A DNA stretch of 64,000 nucleotides. Source: an uncultured Bacilli bacterium (lineage in GTDB: Bacteria > Bacillota_I > Bacilli_A > RF39 > UBA660). The notes beneath the pieces are model-generated. The model saw only the letters and a list, made by a program, of their open reading frames with translations, made no database searches and was not told the origin of the DNA. The DNA lies in assembly GCA_944358445.1 (NCBI GenBank), contig CALVRC010000002.1, forward strand, positions 1 to 64,000. Direction: 5' to 3'. Shown piece by piece: positions 12,049 to 26,662 of this stretch (within the stretch, counting starts at the first letter, position 1; each line of letters opens with the position of its first letter). Made by a program: the position numbers and the translations under genes.

Positions 12049-13083
12049 TCAAACCGCGTTAATTATATATGGATTATTTTCAGATCCAGTTCCACCAATT
12101 ATTTTAGAGTCTTTATTGATGGTTAAAACTGGTCTGACATTTAATGATACATTACTATTTTCTGTATCTATTATTCCATTTTCAATTGTGTAAATATTAG
12201 TTCCATTATTATTTATAGTGTACTCTGGGCCATTTTCTATTGAAAAGTCTGATAAGTAATTTCCTTTCGTACATTCTACTTCAGTACCATTTATACATTT
12301 TAAATTATTTGAGGCATTTAAATAATCTTCGGTTGTTAACAGACCGACATTAACTGTTTCTTTTTCTATGCATTTTTCGTTTTCGTATGATGTACAAAAT
12401 GATGTGTTTTTAAATTCTGAAACAGTATCTAAGCTTGTGAAAAATGTTTTATTTAGATATGTTTTTACAGTAGAATTATCAAAGTTAATATTTCCATCAA
12501 GGCTCCAAGCTATTTTGGTTGTTTCATCATTACTAATAATTTTTATACTTCCATCACTATTATTACTAATTATTCGCCATAATTTTCCATTTAGTTTTAA
12601 ATAATTATCTGGATTTTCTCCTTTATAAATACCATTTTGCGCTAATAAAACATCTTTTTTTTTAGAGTTATTAATTATAGTAGTGGCTAAATCATTCATA
12701 GCTATATCTTCATCTTCACTTTTATCAACATATGTAAATATAAACTGTTTTTTAGAGCTATCATATTTTATTTCAACATTACCTTTTAAGTTTTCACTGC
12801 TATGACGTGGATCTTTAATTTCATCATTTGAAATATATCCTTCATTTACTAATGTGTCAACTGGAAGACGGTATACTGAACCATCATCTGGCAATATATT
12901 TGCATGTTTTAAACTCCATGTTTTAGCAGCTTTTTCAATGACAGCTACCTGATCGTTATATGCACTTTCTCTTGAATTTCTGATAACTGATGCGATTGCT
13001 GGATAAACAACTAATGCTATTAAGCCTAATATAGCTACAACAGCGATTAACTCAACTAATGTAAATCCCTTTATTTTTTTCAT
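12049..13083 (-). CDS. Type IV pilin-like protein with C-terminal adhesin-like module
   Basis: The 344-aa protein begins MKKIKGFTLVELIAVVAILG, a class III prepilin signal cut before Phe by a prepilin peptidase, followed by a pilin helix and a domain to about residue 125. From about residue 150 it has a module also found in the TasA-like protein at 15329 (here YKGENPDNYLKLNGKLWRII, then SNNSDGSIKII, VKTYLNKTF, VGLLTTEDYLNAS, VRPVLTIN, GGTGSENNPYII). The terminal part is low-GC and Asn-rich, unlike the GC-rich island in the paralogous modules. ATG 13083 follows AGGTGA. A strong promoter lies at 13107-13135. Confidence 0.88.
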   Translation of the reverse strand: MKKIKGFTLVELIAVVAILGLIALVVYPAIASVIRNSRESAYNDQVAVIEKAAKTWSLKHANILPDDGSVYRLPVDTLVNEGYISNDEIKDPRHSSENLKGNVEIKYDSSKKQFIFTYVDKSEDEDIAMNDLATTIINNSKKKDVLLAQNGIYKGENPDNYLKLNGKLWRIISNNSDGSIKIISNDETTKIAWSLDGNINFDNSTVKTYLNKTFFTSLDTVSEFKNTSFCTSYENEKCIEKETVNVGLLTTEDYLNASNNLKCINGTEVECTKGNYLSDFSIENGPEYTINNNGTNIYTIENGIIDTENSNVSLNVRPVLTINKDSKIIGGTGSENNPYIINAV

Positions 13084-13106
13084 TTTTATCACCTATTCTA
13101 TTATAA

Positions 13107-15283: not shown

Positions 15284-15328
15284 AAATATTTATATATCAA
15301 ACTTTAACAAATTTAAGTTTTTAACAAT

Positions 15329-16606
15329 TCAATTTGTTATCACATATGGATTGCCTTGACTTCCATCTCCTGTTAAAGTGATATCTGATGTTAGATAGAC
15401 AGCTGGGGAAACGCCATACGAATAGTACGCATTGTTGTTGCTCACGAGACCGGCAGTACTAGCACGACCGTACACATTGAAGACAAAGATGCTCCAACTG
15501 GCGTCAGGCGAAATTATCCATAAATAACCATCTGAAGGTACTATATTATACATCCAATTTGTTGTTTTACATGTTGTTCTATTTGTATTATTTAAACTTA
15601 AGTTTCCACACTCTTCTGTATTGGTATTTGCTCTTAAATATTCTGATGCTGTTATCATTCCTATACTTACACTTTGTGACTGTGTTCCATTTTCAGCTGC
15701 TATTTGTCCAGCTAAATCACTATTACCACCTGTTACCTTTCCTATACTCCATGTATGGCTTACTATTTTATCTTGATTTGTTGTTATAGTTGGCAAATAT
15801 GTATCATTTAAATATGTTTTTATATCTGATGTCTCCCATGCATTACTATTTCCTGCATCCCATATTTGATTACCTATACTTTCATTTCGCATTATTTTTA
15901 TTGTTCCATCATTTTCAACAGATATTATTCTCCATGTTTCATTATTAAAGGTTATATAGTTATTTGGATTAACTCCTTTATAAATATATCTTCCATTTTC
16001 ATATTCATCTTCATATAATCCATCACCTTCTGTTACTACTTCAACTTCTTGGCCTCCTATTGTTGGTCCTGTTGGTGTTGGTGGAACTACTGTTCCATCA
16101 TCTTGTTTATAATTTAAAGTAACTGTTATTGTACTATTTGTATTTTCTGGTTGACTTGTTACACTACTAATATAACTTACTATTACTGTTAATATATCTG
16201 TTTGACTTGCTCCTAATTTATCTCCATTTTCTATTCCACTTGTTTCAAATGTTATTGCATCATTTTCTCCAGTATTTACTTCTATACTTTCAAGTACAGC
16301 ATCTATACTTCCTTCATTTGATACTGTTATATCATATTTCATGGAATCTCCTGGGGATACTAAATTTGTTTTAAAAGTTGCTGTAGTATCTGTATAACTT
16401 GGTTCTACTGCATTTGTCGCACTCCCACTTTGTACTGTACTTTGTATATTAGTTATTTTAACGCTAAAATTACTATCAATATTGGCTGTTCCATTAATTT
16501 TTAATTGAGTCGCAAATGCTGCATATCCTACCCCCATTATTACTAAAATCATACATAGACCTATAATTATATAATTTCTTTGTTTTGAATTTAATCTTTT
16601 ATTCAT
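15329..16606 (-). CDS. TasA-like SipW-dependent protein fused to adhesin-like module with hypervariable end
   Basis: The 425-aa protein has the paralogue signal (MGVGYAAFATQLKINGTANID), a TasA/camelysin-like domain to about residue 170 (NLVSPGDSMKYDITVSNEG, VTLNYKQD), a Pro/Thr linker (VVPPTPTGPT) and a C-terminal module of about 230 residues. Module landmarks are YKGVNPNNYITFNNETWRII, NDGTIKIM, IKTYLNDTYL and IGMITASEYLRA. It ends YGVSPAVYLTSDITLTGDGSQGNPYVI, which suggests an extracellular binding domain. The 15392-15512 stretch has about 48% GC and nearly all NNY codons. ATG 16606 follows AGAGGTGA. The promoter has a G7 tract in its spacer. Confidence 0.88.
   Translation of the reverse strand: MNKRLNSKQRNYIIIGLCMILVIMGVGYAAFATQLKINGTANIDSNFSVKITNIQSTVQSGSATNAVEPSYTDTTATFKTNLVSPGDSMKYDITVSNEGSIDAVLESIEVNTGENDAITFETSGIENGDKLGASQTDILTVIVSYISSVTSQPENTNSTITVTLNYKQDDGTVVPPTPTGPTIGGQEVEVVTEGDGLYEDEYENGRYIYKGVNPNNYITFNNETWRIISVENDGTIKIMRNESIGNQIWDAGNSNAWETSDIKTYLNDTYLPTITTNQDKIVSHTWSIGKVTGGNSDLAGQIAAENGTQSQSVSIGMITASEYLRANTNTEECGNLSLNNTNRTTCKTTNWMYNIVPSDGYLWIISPDASWSIFVFNVYGRASTAGLVSNNNAYYSYGVSPAVYLTSDITLTGDGSQGNPYVITN
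15392..15512 (-). other. Candidate DGR variable region in the adhesin-like module
   Basis: Within the coding strand from GAC GCC AGT TGG to GGC GTT TCC, 28 of 33 codons end in C or T. Leu and Arg are written CTC and CGT instead of the TTA and AGA used elsewhere in this genome. Hand-counted GC of 15421-15480 is 29/60. This is what adenine-targeted mutagenesis of AAY codons by a diversity-generating retroelement produces, at the usual position near the C-terminus of a target protein. No template repeat or reverse transcriptase is visible in the window. Confidence 0.55.
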
Positions 16607-16636
16607 TCTTTTCACCTCTTATATTTTATCAATTAT

Positions 16637-16771: not shown

Positions 16772-16801
16772 AAAAAAATTAGGAACTAAGTCCTAATTTT
16801 T
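16772..16801 (-). terminator. Terminator of the SipW-DUF5305 operon
   Basis: Stem AAAAATTAGGA / TCCTAATTTTT overlaps the stop codon at 16793-16795 and is followed on the minus strand by T-rich sequence. Confidence 0.75.
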
Positions 16802-17893
16802 CTTGAAATGATCAAAATCTGATTCTCTTAAAGTAAATTTATATGCATTATTATTATTTACAATTACAAATACACTTTCAACATTTTCTTTAACTTCGAA
16901 GTATAAAATTGGTGAATGTAATTCTTCTTCTACATCTACTAAGTCGTTAAAGTTTTTAATATTAATTACATCGTATTGTTCTAAATCTGGCATGTTATGT
17001 GTTTCAGCAATAATGTCGGCATATTCTTTTAAGATTTTGTTAAGTGCTAGAACATATTCTGATTTTCTAGTTACTGCAAGTAAGCTCTTAACTAATACTT
17101 TGAATATAATTAATGAGGCAACTAATAATACAACACCAAATGCTAGTAATGGAACATTCATTTCAGTATCTTTTGATGCTGATTTATAGATTGTATCTCC
17201 TCCATTATTTACATAGTTTGGTTTAATATTTATTGTTTGTTGTAATAATGGTATTTCTAATGACATAGTATTAGAGGCTTGTAGGTCATTTTCATTACTA
17301 TCTTTTAGTCCTGCAGTAATATTAATTTTCATACTTAAATCAACTCTAGCATCAATCGATAATCCGAATTGATTACGGAAATCAGTCATAATATCATTAT
17401 ATTCATTATAATTTAATTGAACATTTTTATTAATTGTAAATGTTTTACCACTACCACTTTGATTAGCTTGATTGTCTATAGGATAATTTTTTGTCCAAAC
17501 TTCGACATCCTCACCTTCTGTGTTTTGATATAACCCTTTTGCAGTTGCCACTATTTCATAGTTATAACTGTAATCTAATTCTTCAGTACTTTGGAAATTA
17601 TAAACTGCATCAACATCAATATGATCAATTAATGATGAGATATATTGTTTATTCATTCCAATATAAGGTGATGTAAAGAATTGGTTATTCTTTAAATAAA
17701 CCTTATAATTTAAATTTGAAGTATAATTATATGAATATAATTTTTCTCTAGATGCTTGCTCAGGATTAACAGCTTTAACAATTGACACAATGGATACCAC
17801 CATTAAGGCAATTACAGCGATTAAAAAGAATACTCTAATCCACTGTTTTAAAATCATTTTGTTTTCATTTTTTTGTTTCTTTTTATTTTCCAT
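16793..17893 (-). CDS. DUF5305-type membrane protein, partner of SipW-like peptidase
   Basis: The 366-aa protein has an N-terminal transmembrane helix (about residues 17-40) and an extracellular domain with the DUF5305 pattern (KVYLKNNQFF.SPYIGMNKQYISSLIDHIDV, YSYNYEIVATAKG, WTKNYPI, SLEIPLLQQTINI). A second membrane helix lies near residue 265 and a cytoplasmic tail of about 90 residues follows. DUF5305 proteins often lie beside SipW-type signal peptidases; the function is unknown, and a role in substrate maturation or fibre assembly is inference. ATG 17893 follows AAGGGGAGAAG; a longer start at 17926 would overlap the upstream gene. It is 16 bp downstream of the peptidase gene. Confidence 0.82.
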   Translation of the reverse strand: MENKKKQKNENKMILKQWIRVFFLIAVIALMVVSIVSIVKAVNPEQASREKLYSYNYTSNLNYKVYLKNNQFFTSPYIGMNKQYISSLIDHIDVDAVYNFQSTEELDYSYNYEIVATAKGLYQNTEGEDVEVWTKNYPIDNQANQSGSGKTFTINKNVQLNYNEYNDIMTDFRNQFGLSIDARVDLSMKINITAGLKDSNENDLQASNTMSLEIPLLQQTINIKPNYVNNGGDTIYKSASKDTEMNVPLLAFGVVLLVASLIIFKVLVKSLLAVTRKSEYVLALNKILKEYADIIAETHNMPDLEQYDVINIKNFNDLVDVEEELHSPILYFEVKENVESVFVIVNNNNAYKFTLRESDFDHFKKN

Positions 17894-17909
17894 TTTTCTT
17901 CTCCCCTTC

Positions 17910-19052
17910 TTATGATATTGCACCACTTAACCATACTGATGGATATCCAATCAATGGTATAACAAATGATACTTTTCCTTTTACATCTTCTAAAGCAACC
18001 TTATCTTCATCAATGGTGTTGTTGTGATCACCTTTTGTAATAAATTGTTTGTTTCCATAACTGTCATTAGTAATATCTACAATTCTATGGACAACATATT
18101 TTGTTCCACTTACAAATTGAATTATATCACCTTTTTTTAGTTCATTCTTTTCTCTAGTGTTAAGTTTATTAACGACTACTGCGTCTCCTCTATTAAAAGT
18201 TGGTGACATACTGCCTGATAAAACAGCTATTGGTTGGTATTTAAATAATCCCATTACGAAGCCAGCAAGCAGTGCTATAAAAGCAAAAACTGGAACATAA
18301 ACTACCGGATTATAATTTCTTCTTTCTCTTTTTGATAATCTTTCTGATCTATTTACATGAACATAATTCATATAAATATAAATTGCAAGTGGTAATGTAA
18401 CGCCAACTATGGCAGTTGCAAACCAATCCAGGTTAGGAATGATTGGTACTATGAATGGTGGAATTGTAACAAATAATCTATATATTATAGAGAATTTTGC
18501 ACCACCTATATATACTAGATAAGTAGCAATTGCACTTTCTAATATAGCTGGAATTAAAGTTGTTGAAGAATAAATAAATATTTCTTTCAAATCTGTAAAA
18601 TGACTTTCAATATTAGAATAATTTAAGTTAATTAACATAAATAAGATTGTCATTAAAATATAATTCCAATGTTTTTTCTTTTCATTTTTTACTAATGCTT
18701 CTCTAATAAATTCTTGGAAGAAAATTAATCCACCAAAACTCCATAAGTTTTTCAATATGCTAAATAAATCTTTTGAATATGGTGTTTTTTCAAATCCAAA
18801 AATTAATCCTAGTAAGAAGTAAACAATTATATAAATAATTAGTGCTATAATTAAGCTTTGTGTTTTGTCTTTTTCACCTTTAACTCTTAATCCAGAGTCT
18901 TTACTCAAATAAACTGCTACACCACATATGATTATCCACATAAGTGGATGGAATATTTCATTATAATAATCGAGACTAAGTGGAATGATGACAAAAACAT
19001 TTAAAACTAAATATATAATTAACAAACTATATATTATTAGGTTTTTTTTCAT
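17910..19052 (-). CDS. sipW: SipW-type (ER/archaeal-type) signal peptidase I with polytopic N-terminus
   Basis: The catalytic C-terminal part has GSMSPTFNRGDAVVVNK with the nucleophile Ser, and KYVVHRIVDI with His in the place of the usual catalytic Lys, the SipW/archaeal-type hallmark, followed by TKGDHNN. The 380-aa length is about twice that of Bacillus SipW. The extra N-terminal 240 residues form about six to seven transmembrane helices I cannot assign to a family. In Bacillus SipW cuts TasA-type signals; nine TasA-like genes or remnants occur in this window. ATG 19052 is 7 nt after AAGGGG, while the ATG at 19058 is too close to it. Confidence 0.88.
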   Translation of the reverse strand: MKKNLIIYSLLIIYLVLNVFVIIPLSLDYYNEIFHPLMWIIICGVAVYLSKDSGLRVKGEKDKTQSLIIALIIYIIVYFLLGLIFGFEKTPYSKDLFSILKNLWSFGGLIFFQEFIREALVKNEKKKHWNYILMTILFMLINLNYSNIESHFTDLKEIFIYSSTTLIPAILESAIATYLVYIGGAKFSIIYRLFVTIPPFIVPIIPNLDWFATAIVGVTLPLAIYIYMNYVHVNRSERLSKRERRNYNPVVYVPVFAFIALLAGFVMGLFKYQPIAVLSGSMSPTFNRGDAVVVNKLNTREKNELKKGDIIQFVSGTKYVVHRIVDITNDSYGNKQFITKGDHNNTIDEDKVALEDVKGKVSFVIPLIGYPSVWLSGAIS

Positions 19053-19096
19053 ATTCATACCCCTTTTTAATGGTTATCCCTACTATTCTATAATGA

Positions 19097-19229: not shown

Positions 19230-19790
19230 TTAAGCTTGAGAAGCATTCATATTAACAGTAATACTTGCAGTTGTGTCAGTACCAACAGATGTTGCAGAAC
19301 TAATGAATTCAGCTTTTACTGTCATAGTAACTGTATCATTTTGATTCATTGTTGTAGTAGCTGCTGGTGTTACAGTAAATTGAATATTACCTTTTCTAGC
19401 AACTAATGGTTCAACAGCTTCGTCACCAGTCATTTCAACGGTTGGAGTTCCTACAGTAGCAGGAATTGTACCATTATTTTTAATTGTTAGTGTAAATGTA
19501 ACAGTATCTCCTGGTTGATATAATGTTGCCCTAATATTTGCATTATGATCATCGTTATCATAAGTTACAGTACCAGTTGGAGTTGTTCCTCCAGCAAAAC
19601 CAGCTACTGCATCAACTACACCTGGAGTAGCTTCTGTTTTTGTTGATTCATATTTTACATCCCAAGTTGAAGTAATTTCAGCACTTCCGTTAATTGTTAA
19701 TTGTTGTGCAAATGCGGCATAACCAACTGCCATTACAAATACTACTGCAAGTAATGCTCCAATTAATATGTTTTTGTGTTTACTTTCCAT
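19230..19790 (-). CDS. TasA/camelysin-like surface protein (tandem copy 1)
   Basis: The 186-aa product begins MESKHKNILIGALLAVVFVMAVGYAAFAQQLTINGSAEIT, a SipW-type signal, then a beta domain (WDVKYE, AGFAGGTTPTGTVTYDN, YQPGDTVTFTLTIKNNGT, MTVKAEFISSATSV, ITVNMNASQA). It is very similar over its length to the neighbour at 19908, indicating a recent tandem duplication. ATG 19790 was chosen because the paralogues also start MESKHKN and an AAAGGA SD precedes it. The gene has its own promoter, 5' hairpin and terminator, so it is monocistronic. A fibre or biofilm subunit role is inferred from the family. Confidence 0.87.
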   Translation of the reverse strand: MESKHKNILIGALLAVVFVMAVGYAAFAQQLTINGSAEITSTWDVKYESTKTEATPGVVDAVAGFAGGTTPTGTVTYDNDDHNANIRATLYQPGDTVTFTLTIKNNGTIPATVGTPTVEMTGDEAVEPLVARKGNIQFTVTPAATTTMNQNDTVTMTVKAEFISSATSVGTDTTASITVNMNASQA

Positions 19791-19809
19791 TTTTTCCATC
19801 CTTTCTCTC

Positions 19810-19828
19810 AAGTAGCTTTCTCCTACTT
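19810..19828 (-). promoter_or_regulatory. 5'-terminal mRNA hairpin, copy 1
   Basis: Stem AAGTAG / CTACTT (minus strand AAGTAGGAGAAAGCTACTT) begins at about +2 of the predicted transcript. The same element precedes the two neighbouring paralogues. A mRNA-stabilising or translational role is inferred. Confidence 0.55.
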
Positions 19829-19835
19829 TATTTAT

Positions 19836-19864
19836 AATATATCATAATTGGTTTTTTCATTCAA
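19836..19864 (-). promoter_or_regulatory. Sigma-A type promoter, TasA-like gene 19230
   Basis: TTGAAT (19864-19859), 17-bp spacer ending ATGA, TATATT (19841-19836) on the minus strand. Confidence 0.75.
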
Positions 19865-19872
19865 GACAAAAC

Positions 19873-19898
19873 AAAAAAAACTATAAAAAGTTTTTTTG
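19873..19898 (-). terminator. Terminator of the TasA-like gene at 19908
   Basis: Stem AAAAAAACT / AGTTTTTTT lies just after the stop codon, with further T's on the minus strand. Confidence 0.6.
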
Positions 19899-19907
19899 TT
19901 TTACACT

Positions 19908-20471
19908 TTACGCTGTTGCTTGAGAAGCGTTCATGTTAATTGTAACATCTGCTGTAGTAGTATTACCAATAGATGTTGCAGAACTAATGAATTCAGCTTT
20001 TACTGTCATAGTAACTGTTTCAGTTTGGTTAATTGTTTTTGTGTCTGCAGCAGTTACAGTAAATTGAATATTACCTTTTCTAGCAATTAATGGTTCATCA
20101 GCTTCGTCACCAGCCATAGCAACAGTAGGCGCTCCTACAGTAGCAGGAATTGTACCATTATTTACAATTGTTAATGTAAATAAAACGGTATCTCCTGGTT
20201 GATATAATGTTGCACTTATGTTTGCGTTATGATTTCCGTTATCATAACCTATTGTTCCGGTTGGAGTTGTTCCTCCAGCAAAACCAGCTACTGCATCAAC
20301 TACACCTGCTCCGGTTTTTTTAGAAGGGTCGAATGTTACATCCCATGTAGATGTAATTTCAGCACTTCCGTTGATTGTTAATTGTTGAGCAAATGCGGCA
20401 TAACCAACTGCCATTACAAATACTACTGCAAGTAATGCACCAATTAACGCATTTTTGTGTTTACTTTCCAT
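19908..20471 (-). CDS. TasA/camelysin-like surface protein (tandem copy 2)
   Basis: The 187-aa product begins MESKHKNALIGALLAVVFVMAVGYAAF and then follows copy 1 nearly residue for residue (AGFAGGTTPTGTIGYDN, YQPGDTVLFTLTIVNNGT, MTVKAEFISSATSI, NMNASQATA). The differences cluster in the WDVTFDPSKKTG loop. It has its own promoter (20522-20550), 5' hairpin and terminator. As a duplicate pair, copies 1 and 2 may form mixed fibres or serve as alternative subunits; this is inference. Confidence 0.87.
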   Translation of the reverse strand: MESKHKNALIGALLAVVFVMAVGYAAFAQQLTINGSAEITSTWDVTFDPSKKTGAGVVDAVAGFAGGTTPTGTIGYDNGNHNANISATLYQPGDTVLFTLTIVNNGTIPATVGAPTVAMAGDEADEPLIARKGNIQFTVTAADTKTINQTETVTMTVKAEFISSATSIGNTTTADVTINMNASQATA

Positions 20472-20498
20472 TTTTTCCTTCCTTCCTATAATATTCTA

Positions 20499-20513
20499 AG
20501 TAGCTTCCCTACT
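20499..20513 (-). promoter_or_regulatory. 5'-terminal mRNA hairpin, copy 2
   Basis: Minus strand AGTAGGGAAGCTACT: stem AGTAG/CTACT right at the predicted mRNA 5' end; identical in layout to the neighbours at 19810 and 21217. Confidence 0.55.
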
Positions 20514-20521
20514 CTATAATG

Positions 20522-20550
20522 ATATTATCATATTTTGATTTACAATTCAA
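20522..20550 (-). promoter_or_regulatory. Sigma-A type promoter, TasA-like gene 19908
   Basis: TTGAAT (20550-20545), 17-bp spacer ending ATGA, TAATAT (20527-20522) on the minus strand. Confidence 0.75.
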
Positions 20551-20609
20551 GAAATTTTTCTCGTTTTTTTGTATACATTTGTTAAATGTGTTTAAATTAC
20601 ATAATAAAA

Positions 20610-20633
20610 ACTTAAGCAAAAAAATGCTTAAGC
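20610..20633 (-). terminator. Terminator of the TasA-like gene at 20628
   Basis: Stem CTTAAGCA / TGCTTAAG overlaps the stop codon and is followed on the minus strand by TTTTTATT. Confidence 0.75.
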
Positions 20634-21191
20634 TTGAACATAGTTCATTGTTACTGTTAATTGAGCTGAAAGATTTTGAAGGTTACCTTGTCCTTCTGCC
20701 CTGTTAACAAATTCAGCGACAATAGTTATTTGAGCTGTACCGTTATTAGCATTTAATATTCCTGTACCTGGACTAGTAACAGTATATTTAATATCACCAT
20801 CTTTTGTTGTAGCAGTTAAACTTCTATTATCAACAACCATTTCTGGAGTTTCACTTGATAAAGTAATTGTACTTAATTTAGCATTTAATGTTCCAGTATT
20901 TTCGATTGGAATCACATAAGTAACGGTATCTCCTGGACTCATTAATTCTGAAGTAAATGTAGCTGTTAGTCCGCCTTCATCAACAGTAACATCTCCAGTA
21001 GGGGCTGTTCCCATTGTAGAATTTGGTGTTGCAGTTGCTCCTTCTTGTTTCATATGAACATCCCATCTTGAGGTGATTTCAGCACTTCCGTTGATTGTTA
21101 ATTGTTGTGCAAATGCGGCATAACCAACTGCCATTACAAATACTACTGCAAGTAATGCTCCAATTAAGGCATTTTTGTGTTTTGCTTCCAT
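20628..21191 (-). CDS. TasA/camelysin-like surface protein (copy 3)
   Basis: The 187-aa product begins MEAKHKNALIGALLAVVFVMAVGYAAFAQQLTINGSAEIT, almost identical to copies 1 and 2. The beta domain is more diverged (WDVHMKQEGATATPNSTMG, ELMSPGDTVTYVIPIENTG, AQITIVAEFVNRAEGQ, LTVTMNYVQA). SD AGGAGGGGAG precedes the ATG. It has its own promoter, conserved 5' hairpin and terminator. The signal and first 40 residues are far more conserved than the rest, as expected if SipW recognition or fibre packing constrains them. Confidence 0.87.
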   Translation of the reverse strand: MEAKHKNALIGALLAVVFVMAVGYAAFAQQLTINGSAEITSRWDVHMKQEGATATPNSTMGTAPTGDVTVDEGGLTATFTSELMSPGDTVTYVIPIENTGTLNAKLSTITLSSETPEMVVDNRSLTATTKDGDIKYTVTSPGTGILNANNGTAQITIVAEFVNRAEGQGNLQNLSAQLTVTMNYVQA

Positions 21192-21216
21192 TTTTCTCCC
21201 CTCCTATAATATTCTA

Positions 21217-21231
21217 AGTAGCTTCTCTACT
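21217..21231 (-). promoter_or_regulatory. 5'-terminal mRNA hairpin, copy 3
   Basis: Minus strand AGTAGAGAAGCTACT; differs from copy 2 by one base in the loop while the stem is kept. Confidence 0.55.
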
Positions 21232-21239
21232 CTATTATG

Positions 21240-21268
21240 ATATTATCACATTTGGTGCATTATTTCAA
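21240..21268 (-). promoter_or_regulatory. Sigma-A type promoter, TasA-like gene 20628
   Basis: TTGAAA (21268-21263), 17-bp spacer ending GTGA, TAATAT (21245-21240) on the minus strand. Confidence 0.75.
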
Positions 21269-21306
21269 GAATAAAATTTTATAATTTATGGCAATGATGT
21301 AAAGAA

Positions 21307-21340
21307 AGAAACATTAGAATTTATGCTTTCTAATGTTTCT
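21307..21340 (-). terminator. Terminator of the TasA-like gene at 21340
   Basis: Perfect 13-bp stem AGAAACATTAGAA / TTCTAATGTTTCT; followed on the minus strand by TTCTTTAC. Confidence 0.65.
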
Positions 21341-21840
21341 TAAGCTTGAACAAATGTTAAATTCATAGTTAAATTACCTGTCTTGTTAGCAGGGGTTGTA
21401 GTATAACTTTCGTTAAATTTTACAGTAACTGTAAATGTTTTGGAACCGTCTGTATTAATAACATCATTCTGTGAAATACCTTCATAACTATATTGGATAG
21501 CATCATTATTATCAGCATCAAATGTAACTGTATCTAATTTGGCATTTAATGTTCCAGCATTTTTTACTGTTACATTATAAGTTACTCCACTACCCGGACT
21601 TACTAATTCAGCTTGAAATGTAGCACTTAATTTATCATCTCCAACGGTGGCACTAACATTTTTTCCATCTAATATTTCATGATTTACAGCAATATCTTCA
21701 ATGTGAACATCCCATTTTGAAGTTATTTCGGCAGTTCCGTTGATTGTTAATGCTTGGGCGAATGCGGCATAACCTATAGCCATAACTAGGACTACTGCTA
21801 CTAAAACCATAATTAGTGAAGATTTGTGCATATCTTCCAT
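21340..21840 (-). CDS. TasA/camelysin-like surface protein (copy 4)
   Basis: The 166-aa product begins MEDMHKSSLIMVLVAVVLVMAIGYAAFAQALTINGTAEIT. The beta domain has WDVHIEDIAVN, ELVSPGSGVTYNVTVKNAG and NLTMNLTFVQA. It is the most diverged of the four tandem genes. It shares the promoter architecture (21865-21893) but lacks the AGTAG hairpin. SD GGAGATGGGAA precedes ATG 21840. Confidence 0.86.
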   Translation of the reverse strand: MEDMHKSSLIMVLVAVVLVMAIGYAAFAQALTINGTAEITSKWDVHIEDIAVNHEILDGKNVSATVGDDKLSATFQAELVSPGSGVTYNVTVKNAGTLNAKLDTVTFDADNNDAIQYSYEGISQNDVINTDGSKTFTVTVKFNESYTTTPANKTGNLTMNLTFVQA

Positions 21841-26123: not shown

Positions 26124-26662
26124 TTATGACACTATAGTAAATGGGGCTTCTTTACTTCCACTGCCAGTCAATTGAGTATCTGCTTTTAGGAAAACTACTG
26201 GGCGGGGAGCGTAACTACTACCAGGCAGCACGGGTGCGGTATAAATGCTAAGCACACATGCGTTAAAACTATCCACACCAGCATACCAAACTTGAGAAGA
26301 AGCACTACCAGACTCATTAGAAAAGGCATTTATTGTCCAATAAAATAATGAACTTGCATTTCCTTTATTTAATAGGTAATTGCTATTACACGCATCCTTG
26401 AATCTCCCGGTGAAACTAAGTTTGTTTTAAACGTTGTGGTTGTATCATCGTGGGTTGGAGTCATAGCATCACTTGCCTGTCCACTTTGAACCGTACTTTG
26501 TATATCAGTTATTTTAACTAAGAAGTTAGTAGCTATATTAGATGTTCCTGATATTTTTAATTGTGATTGAAAAGCCGCATATCCTACTCCCATTATTAAA
26601 AGTATTGCACATAATCCCATAATTATATAATTTCTATTTGTCCTACTTAATTTTTTGTTCAT
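26124..26662 (-). pseudogene. Decayed TasA-like adhesin (internal deletion plus frameshift)
   Basis: The 5' part encodes a normal TasA-like start (MNKKLSRTNRNYII, MGVGYAAFQSQLKISGTSNI, NLVSPGDS) and then runs out of frame into RMRVIAITY and a stop at 26369. Directly after the junction another frame encodes the C-terminal end of the adhesin-like module (DACNSNYLLNKG, FYWTINAFS, ending RPVVFLKADTQLTGSGSKEAPFTIVS). About 250 residues between the two parts, relative to the intact gene at 15329, are missing. The remnant keeps a GC-rich island at 26195-26315 like that of the intact gene. The 97-aa truncated reading frame may still be expressed. Confidence 0.82.
26195..26315 (-). other. Candidate relic variable region in the decayed adhesin
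   Basis: 30 of 39 codons (from AAT GAG TCT to CCC CGC) end in C or T, and 26221-26280 has 30/60 GC by hand count against AT-rich surroundings. The position just before RPVVFL equals that of the island in the intact gene before SPAVYL. Confidence 0.45.

Follow-up and report, generated by a model that had tools for sequence, protein, structure and literature searches.

A probable DGR variable region, now apart from its template, in a SipW-type secreted protein of an uncultured Bacilli bacterium

A G+C-rich segment near the 3' end of a gene for a secreted protein is very probably the variable region (VR) of a diversity-generating retroelement (DGR) target, written at some time by a type-A DGR and now found apart from its cognate template repeat (TR) and reverse transcriptase (RT). 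The gene lies in the window, the whole 64,000-nucleotide stretch of DNA analyzed here (bases 1-64000 of contig C2; assembly of 1.43 Mb in 40 contigs, 90.9% complete). The DGR targets described so far are for the most part tail proteins of phages, together with a few cellular ones. Here, a large family of secreted proteins would carry DGR-made tips, with a SipW-type export gene adjoining the target, in genomes that measure about 0.8-1.5 Mb. Such a system, if active, would provide programmed variation of the cell-surface layer in uncultured Bacilli. The VR was recognizable without a TR of its own, by means of the TRs of sister species.

Composition and position of the variable region

The target gene comprises the following features.

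15329..16615, minus strand: target gene, 428 residues, with a SipW-type leader, a stem and a C-terminal DUF6273-like domain that contains the VR (open reading frame)
16511..16615, minus strand: SipW-type leader peptide (...GLCMILVIMGVGYAAFA), from sequence; common to paralogs, similar in small proteins at 19230-21840
15389..15898, minus strand: DUF6273-like domain, residues 240-409 (Pfam PF19789, E=6e-4)
15404..15513, minus strand: VR core, 110 bp (ungapped match to the TR of G014:C7, 81/110 identical)
15380..15415, minus strand: conserved 3' end of the VR, candidate initiation-of-mutagenic-homing-like segment GGCGTTTCCCCAGCTGTCTATCTAACATCAGATATC (identity with the G011 homolog resumes here)

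The first-pass annotation had singled out this segment by its composition, and its counts were reproduced. G+C at 15421-15480 is exactly 29/60, and 28/33 codons at 15410-15508 are NNY, the highest value for any run of 33 codons in the gene (mean 14.4 per run; 156/393 in the remainder of the gene). Codons CTC (leucine) and CGT (arginine) occur in the segment, which occupies residues about 368-403 of the 428-residue reading frame, in the C-terminal placement that had been described. The VR core has 51% G+C, compared with 30% for the remainder of the gene and 27.6% for the whole window, and 15400-15509 is the most G+C-rich 110 bp of the window, a collagen-like repeat at the window start excepted. 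The latter (1-430, at the contig start, ~65% G+C) codes for collagen-like GPT/GXT repeats and ends near 430.

The edges of the VR were delimited by comparison with homologs. The homolog in G011 shares ~84% DNA identity across the gene, is unalignable inside the VR, where its length also differs, and regains near-identity in the final 36 bases (GGCGTTTCCCC(A/G)GCTGTCTATCTAACATCAGATATC). At the protein level, mean identity with five homologs drops from 75% directly upstream of the VR to 39% within it. The TR counterpart of the conserved 3' segment 15380..15415 in G019 is GGCGTTTCCCCAACTCTCTATAAA, and its position suggests a role like that of an initiation-of-mutagenic-homing site.

Target protein and its export context

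The PF19789 match of the window target is below the curated cut-off, and the best E-value among seven aligned homologs is 2.6e-8. DGR VRs have been reported in DUF6273 domains of Faecalibacterium phages, and DUF6273 is C-lectin-like in AlphaFold models (PMC11792537, PMC10743442). By analogy, the C-terminal domain of the target probably adopts a C-lectin-type fold. Structure prediction of this domain from two window sequences only (mean pLDDT 36) was too poor for a fold, and the PDB, searched with the target by sequence and by profile, gave no useful match. The genes next to the target supply the export context.

16793..17926, minus strand: DUF5305 protein, between target and peptidase (PF17231, E=4e-21)
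17910..19058, minus strand: membrane protein with a C-terminal S26 signal peptidase of SipW/archaeal type (TIGR02228)
19230..21840, minus strand: four small proteins with a similar leader (open reading frames)

The peptidase scored 94 bits with TIGR02228 (cut-off 51.85) and was below the cut-off of the SipW model NF046067. The target leader (...VGYAAFA) recurs in the paralogs and, in similar form, in the four small proteins, one of which is weakly camelysin-like (PF12389, sub-threshold). The target had initially been described as a TasA-like adhesin, a label in keeping with the SipW-type leader and the nearby SipW-type peptidase, features shared with TasA/CalY and SipW. Unlike these, the target protein matched none of the TasA and camelysin/Peptidase_M73 models, and "TasA-like" therefore covers the leader and context only. 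We infer that the target is displayed on the cell surface via SipW-type secretion and that its tip binds a ligand.

Type-A cassettes in sister species

RT loci were gathered from 44 genomes of the genus, 32 of which (32/44) encode a DGR-type RT. Comparing these loci with themselves yielded ~18 TR-VR pairs; in most of them every or nearly every mismatch falls on a template adenine (e.g. 21/21 in G025:C14, 17/17 in G030:C2 and 21/21 in G036:C92). One pair, from sister species G014 (contig C7; 17/17 mismatches at TR adenines), is homologous to the window VR over 110 bp without gaps; next to it lie the end of a homologous target, two ORFs resembling MutS domain I and Avd, respectively, and an RT. 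The arrangement in G019:C62 is equal, and the Pfam match to MutS_I was obtained on that copy. A diverged second TR related to the G014 TR was found in G031:C22, and G013 and G025 contain related VRs with equal adenine bias. The G014 TR also accounts for a VR on another contig, C79 (23/27 mismatches at A, no reverse change); remote targets therefore occur. In cassettes of type A and of type B alike, Avd is preceded by a small protein with MutS domain I (loci L115, L119 and L117).

Compared with the G014 TR, the window VR has changed at 17/37 adenines and at 12/73 non-adenine positions (p=0.0012), and in columns where the G014 and G031 TRs agree the values are 14/33 and 1/43 (p=1.3e-5); the sister TRs were picked by likeness to the window VR, so that these p-values serve as description, and the contrast of A with non-A positions does not obviously depend on that choice. 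All adenines of the window VR (20/20) are A in the G014 TR. Window bases fitting neither the TR nor mutagenesis of a TR adenine numbered 5/110, whereas codon-shuffled controls averaged 35.6, and residues differed from the sister TR at 10/14 AAY codons and at 5/21 others. The excess of G+C in the VR is attributable to adenine mutagenesis, which yields it: the G014 TR has 39% G+C, the VR paired with it 51%, and the window VR 51%. Measured against the best heterologous TR, 17/29 mismatches (59%) are at A. This share is under the criterion of 75% of mismatches at A (Roux et al. 2021, PMC8144416), as would be expected with a TR of another species, yet it is no proof; some change at non-A positions is expected because the G014 TR comes from another species.

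DGR of the same genome and search for the template

The genome that holds the window contains one complete DGR, on contig C19. Its RT has LPIGNETSQ and YMDD motifs (RVT_1, 63 bits; PHROG reverse-transcriptase family phrog_1423), and the Avd gene upstream of the RT matches bAvd (PF22296) above the cut-off as well as phrog_3206, "Avd protein of DGR". Between the Avd gene and a target of 982 residues are three template-like repeats; over 107 bp the third departs from the 3' end of the C19 target at 11 positions, 11/11 of them repeat adenines. The three TRs (L002:6556-7195), ahead of a single Avd/RT pair, are unlike one another in sequence and the target fits the third; a related species (L048) has a similar triple-TR arrangement. 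The C19 TRs were ruled out as the source of the window VR, to which none of the three repeats is similar.

In the 90.9%-complete assembly, searches for RT and Avd found no second copy of either. For a TR of the window VR, both blastn and an adenine-tolerant 72-bp IUPAC pattern allowing 3 mismatches recovered the VR itself as the sole match in this assembly. A search of the same assembly with the G014 TR and its flanks gave no TR; it returned a strong match on C5 to an unrelated stretch at the query's far end and a leader-like piece of 39 nt. Similar to the type-A TR leader and followed by no TR, this piece (C2:98701-98741, L169) is flanked by two unrelated genes and is possibly the relic of a lost cassette.

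These results divide the original claims. The first-pass annotation had proposed looking in the genome for a DGR RT and for a template repeat: an RT, within the DGR on C19, is present, and the 90.9%-complete assembly holds no TR matching the window VR. The segment reads as a DGR-type hypervariable region in its homology to TR/RT-linked VRs of sisters, in its adenine-directed change, in its location within a DUF6273-like domain and in the presence of a DGR in the genome. A DGR acting on this gene in this strain is a possibility at most: the VR is of DGR type, but the TRs of the genome's own DGR are of another type and none for this VR was found in the assembly.

Left-over or remote target

Searches of the 90.9%-complete assembly turned up neither a TR nor an RT to match the window VR, and the window gene is therefore to be regarded as a remote or left-over target in its own genome, with a cassette that may be unseen in the incomplete assembly or lost. 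The gene is best filed with the DGR targets of the remote or left-over kind described in Treponema denticola.

The following mechanism is modelled on the known DGR pathway and the anatomy of the cassettes in sister species. A type-A DGR would consist of a TR RNA, Avd and an RT plus the MutS-domain-I accessory ORF. The TR RNA would be copied by the RT with Avd, adenines being misread, and the mutated cDNA would overwrite the target's 3' end, with priming or guidance from the conserved 3' segment. AAY codons would thereby be randomized on the surface of the probable C-lectin-type domain, at the tip of the secreted protein. The cassette would now lie in an unassembled part of the genome or have been lost, and a left-over target would then also be open to gene conversion from paralogs.

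We lean slightly towards a left-over target, in which the type-A DGR has been lost and the VR is frozen or altered by paralog gene conversion only. The assembly is without a cognate TR or RT, the paralog pairs C24/C10 and C9/C18 have identical 3' segments including the VR, and a like situation exists for Treponema denticola SP32 and al-2 (PMC4891356). Set against this are the incompleteness of the assembly and a VR that still looks fresh, with 51% G+C and no stops.

Continued diversification in trans, by a type-A DGR located in the unassembled part of the genome, is a real possibility that falls short of being probable. With 90.9% completeness and 40 contigs, the assembly leaves space for such a cassette; contig ends are close to some of the sister TR/VR loci, the G014 TR matches VRs on two contigs, and the window VR is G+C-rich in an intact ORF. 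Trans activity and hidden intact RT/TR variants have been reported (Dore et al. 2024, PMC10907252). The single RT and single Avd of the assembly speak against it, and the TR-less leader-like piece at C2:98701-98741 is a weak hint at loss.

It is very unlikely that the segment is a G+C-richer module acquired horizontally or shuffled with no DGR involved, the ordinary alternative named in the first-pass annotation. Paralogs do exchange modules, and the VR of the G011 homolog is of another length, but adenine substitution explains the rise in G+C from 39% in the TR to 51% in the VRs. The A versus non-A bias (p=1.3e-5), the count of 0/20 window adenines that are non-A in the sister TR, and the real TR-RT loci adjoining homologous targets in sisters likewise disfavour it. 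Ordinary diversifying selection on a ligand-binding loop is highly improbable: the segment would be hypervariable under either reading, but selection fails to predict conservation at non-A template positions together with change at A positions, NNY endings, or TR/RT genes nearby in relatives.

Family scale and gene conversion

The target belongs to a large family that is probably diversified by DGRs throughout the genus. A search of its own genome recovered 29 places with a related C-terminus (20 at E<1e-3), and whole-protein homologs at E<1e-40 occur in 40/44 genus genomes, counts that include degenerate copies and modules without sign of a VR. At least three VR types are present in this genome. 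Type-B VRs occupy seven places, two of them mutually identical, and each differs from the type-B TR of G014:C66 with adenine bias (p from 5e-6 to 0.003). When a consensus of the type-B TR was reconstructed and queried as DNA against the same genome, it found VRs only and no TR.

Recent gene conversion also moves VR-bearing segments among paralogs. In two paralog pairs, C24/C10 and C9/C18, the 3' portion with its VR is identical within the pair although the upstream parts differ; C19 and C2 have in common a target segment of 2.9 kb at 99.9% identity. Segment exchange among paralogs is therefore a second source of change besides retrohoming, which is not the sole possible current source. At C2:86841-89789 (L160:4842-7790), a second copy of the C19 target has another leader, and the fragment that comes after it has almost the sequence of the first TR. 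A tentative wider picture, to which we give somewhat less than even credence, is that each genome carries dozens of SipW-secreted fibre-type paralogs whose tips are hypermutated in trans by several DGR types and then copied or shuffled by gene conversion.

Comparison with known systems

With the Mtd type of Bordetella phage BPP-1 and cellular DGRs, the systems described here share an RT with IGxxxSQ and YMDD motifs, Avd, a TR with AAY codons, a C-terminal VR, A-directed mismatches and a target domain family described as C-lectin-like. In contrast to those systems, the window holds the target alone, the targets are cellular, secreted and equipped with a SipW-type leader, and the C19 DGR has three different tandem TRs. 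Treponema denticola (PMC4891356) likewise has several remote targets per genome, with VRs that match another strain's TR after loss of the core cassette; it has 2-7 targets per genome, whereas 20-29 related modules were counted here. The Faecalibacterium phage DUF6273 targets and tentaclins (PMC11792537, PMC10743442) also contain a VR in a DUF6273 domain, C-lectin-like in the model of the tentaclin authors. These are phage proteins, whereas for the family described here an IMG/VR scan with the target alignment found no relatives and phage records gave one weak partial match (17% covered). Thiohalocapsa PB-PSB1 (PMC10907252) likewise has several classes of DGR within a lineage, along with degenerate loci, domain shuffling and trans activity; its targets are mostly conflict-system sensors in an 8-Mb genome, in contrast to the secreted fibre-type targets described here, whose genomes measure about 0.8-1.5 Mb.

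DGRs, left-over or remote targets, DUF6273 targets, trans activity and multi-DGR genomes are thus already known. The family of SipW-type secreted cellular targets and its scale in small genomes look new, and a literature search, with most subscription journals outside its scope, found no paper mentioning both DGR and SipW.

Other features of the window

An Rfam scan of the window gave no match. An imperfect inverted repeat at 15305-15339, directly 3' of the target's stop codon, could be a terminator common to the convergent gene or a VR-associated hairpin. Two further genes have modules related to that of the target.

12049..13092, minus strand: pilin-like protein with a related DUF6273-like C-terminal module (N_methyl and weak DUF6273)
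26127..26662, minus strand: broken second target, with leader/stem (26369-26662) and type-B VR module (26127-26426) in different frames

The first combines the DUF6273-like module, 32% identical to the target domain, with a type IV pilin-type N-terminus. The VR of the second differs from the type-B TR at 21/37 A and 20/86 non-A positions (p=4e-4), and this broken gene has a G+C island of its own at 26180-26239.
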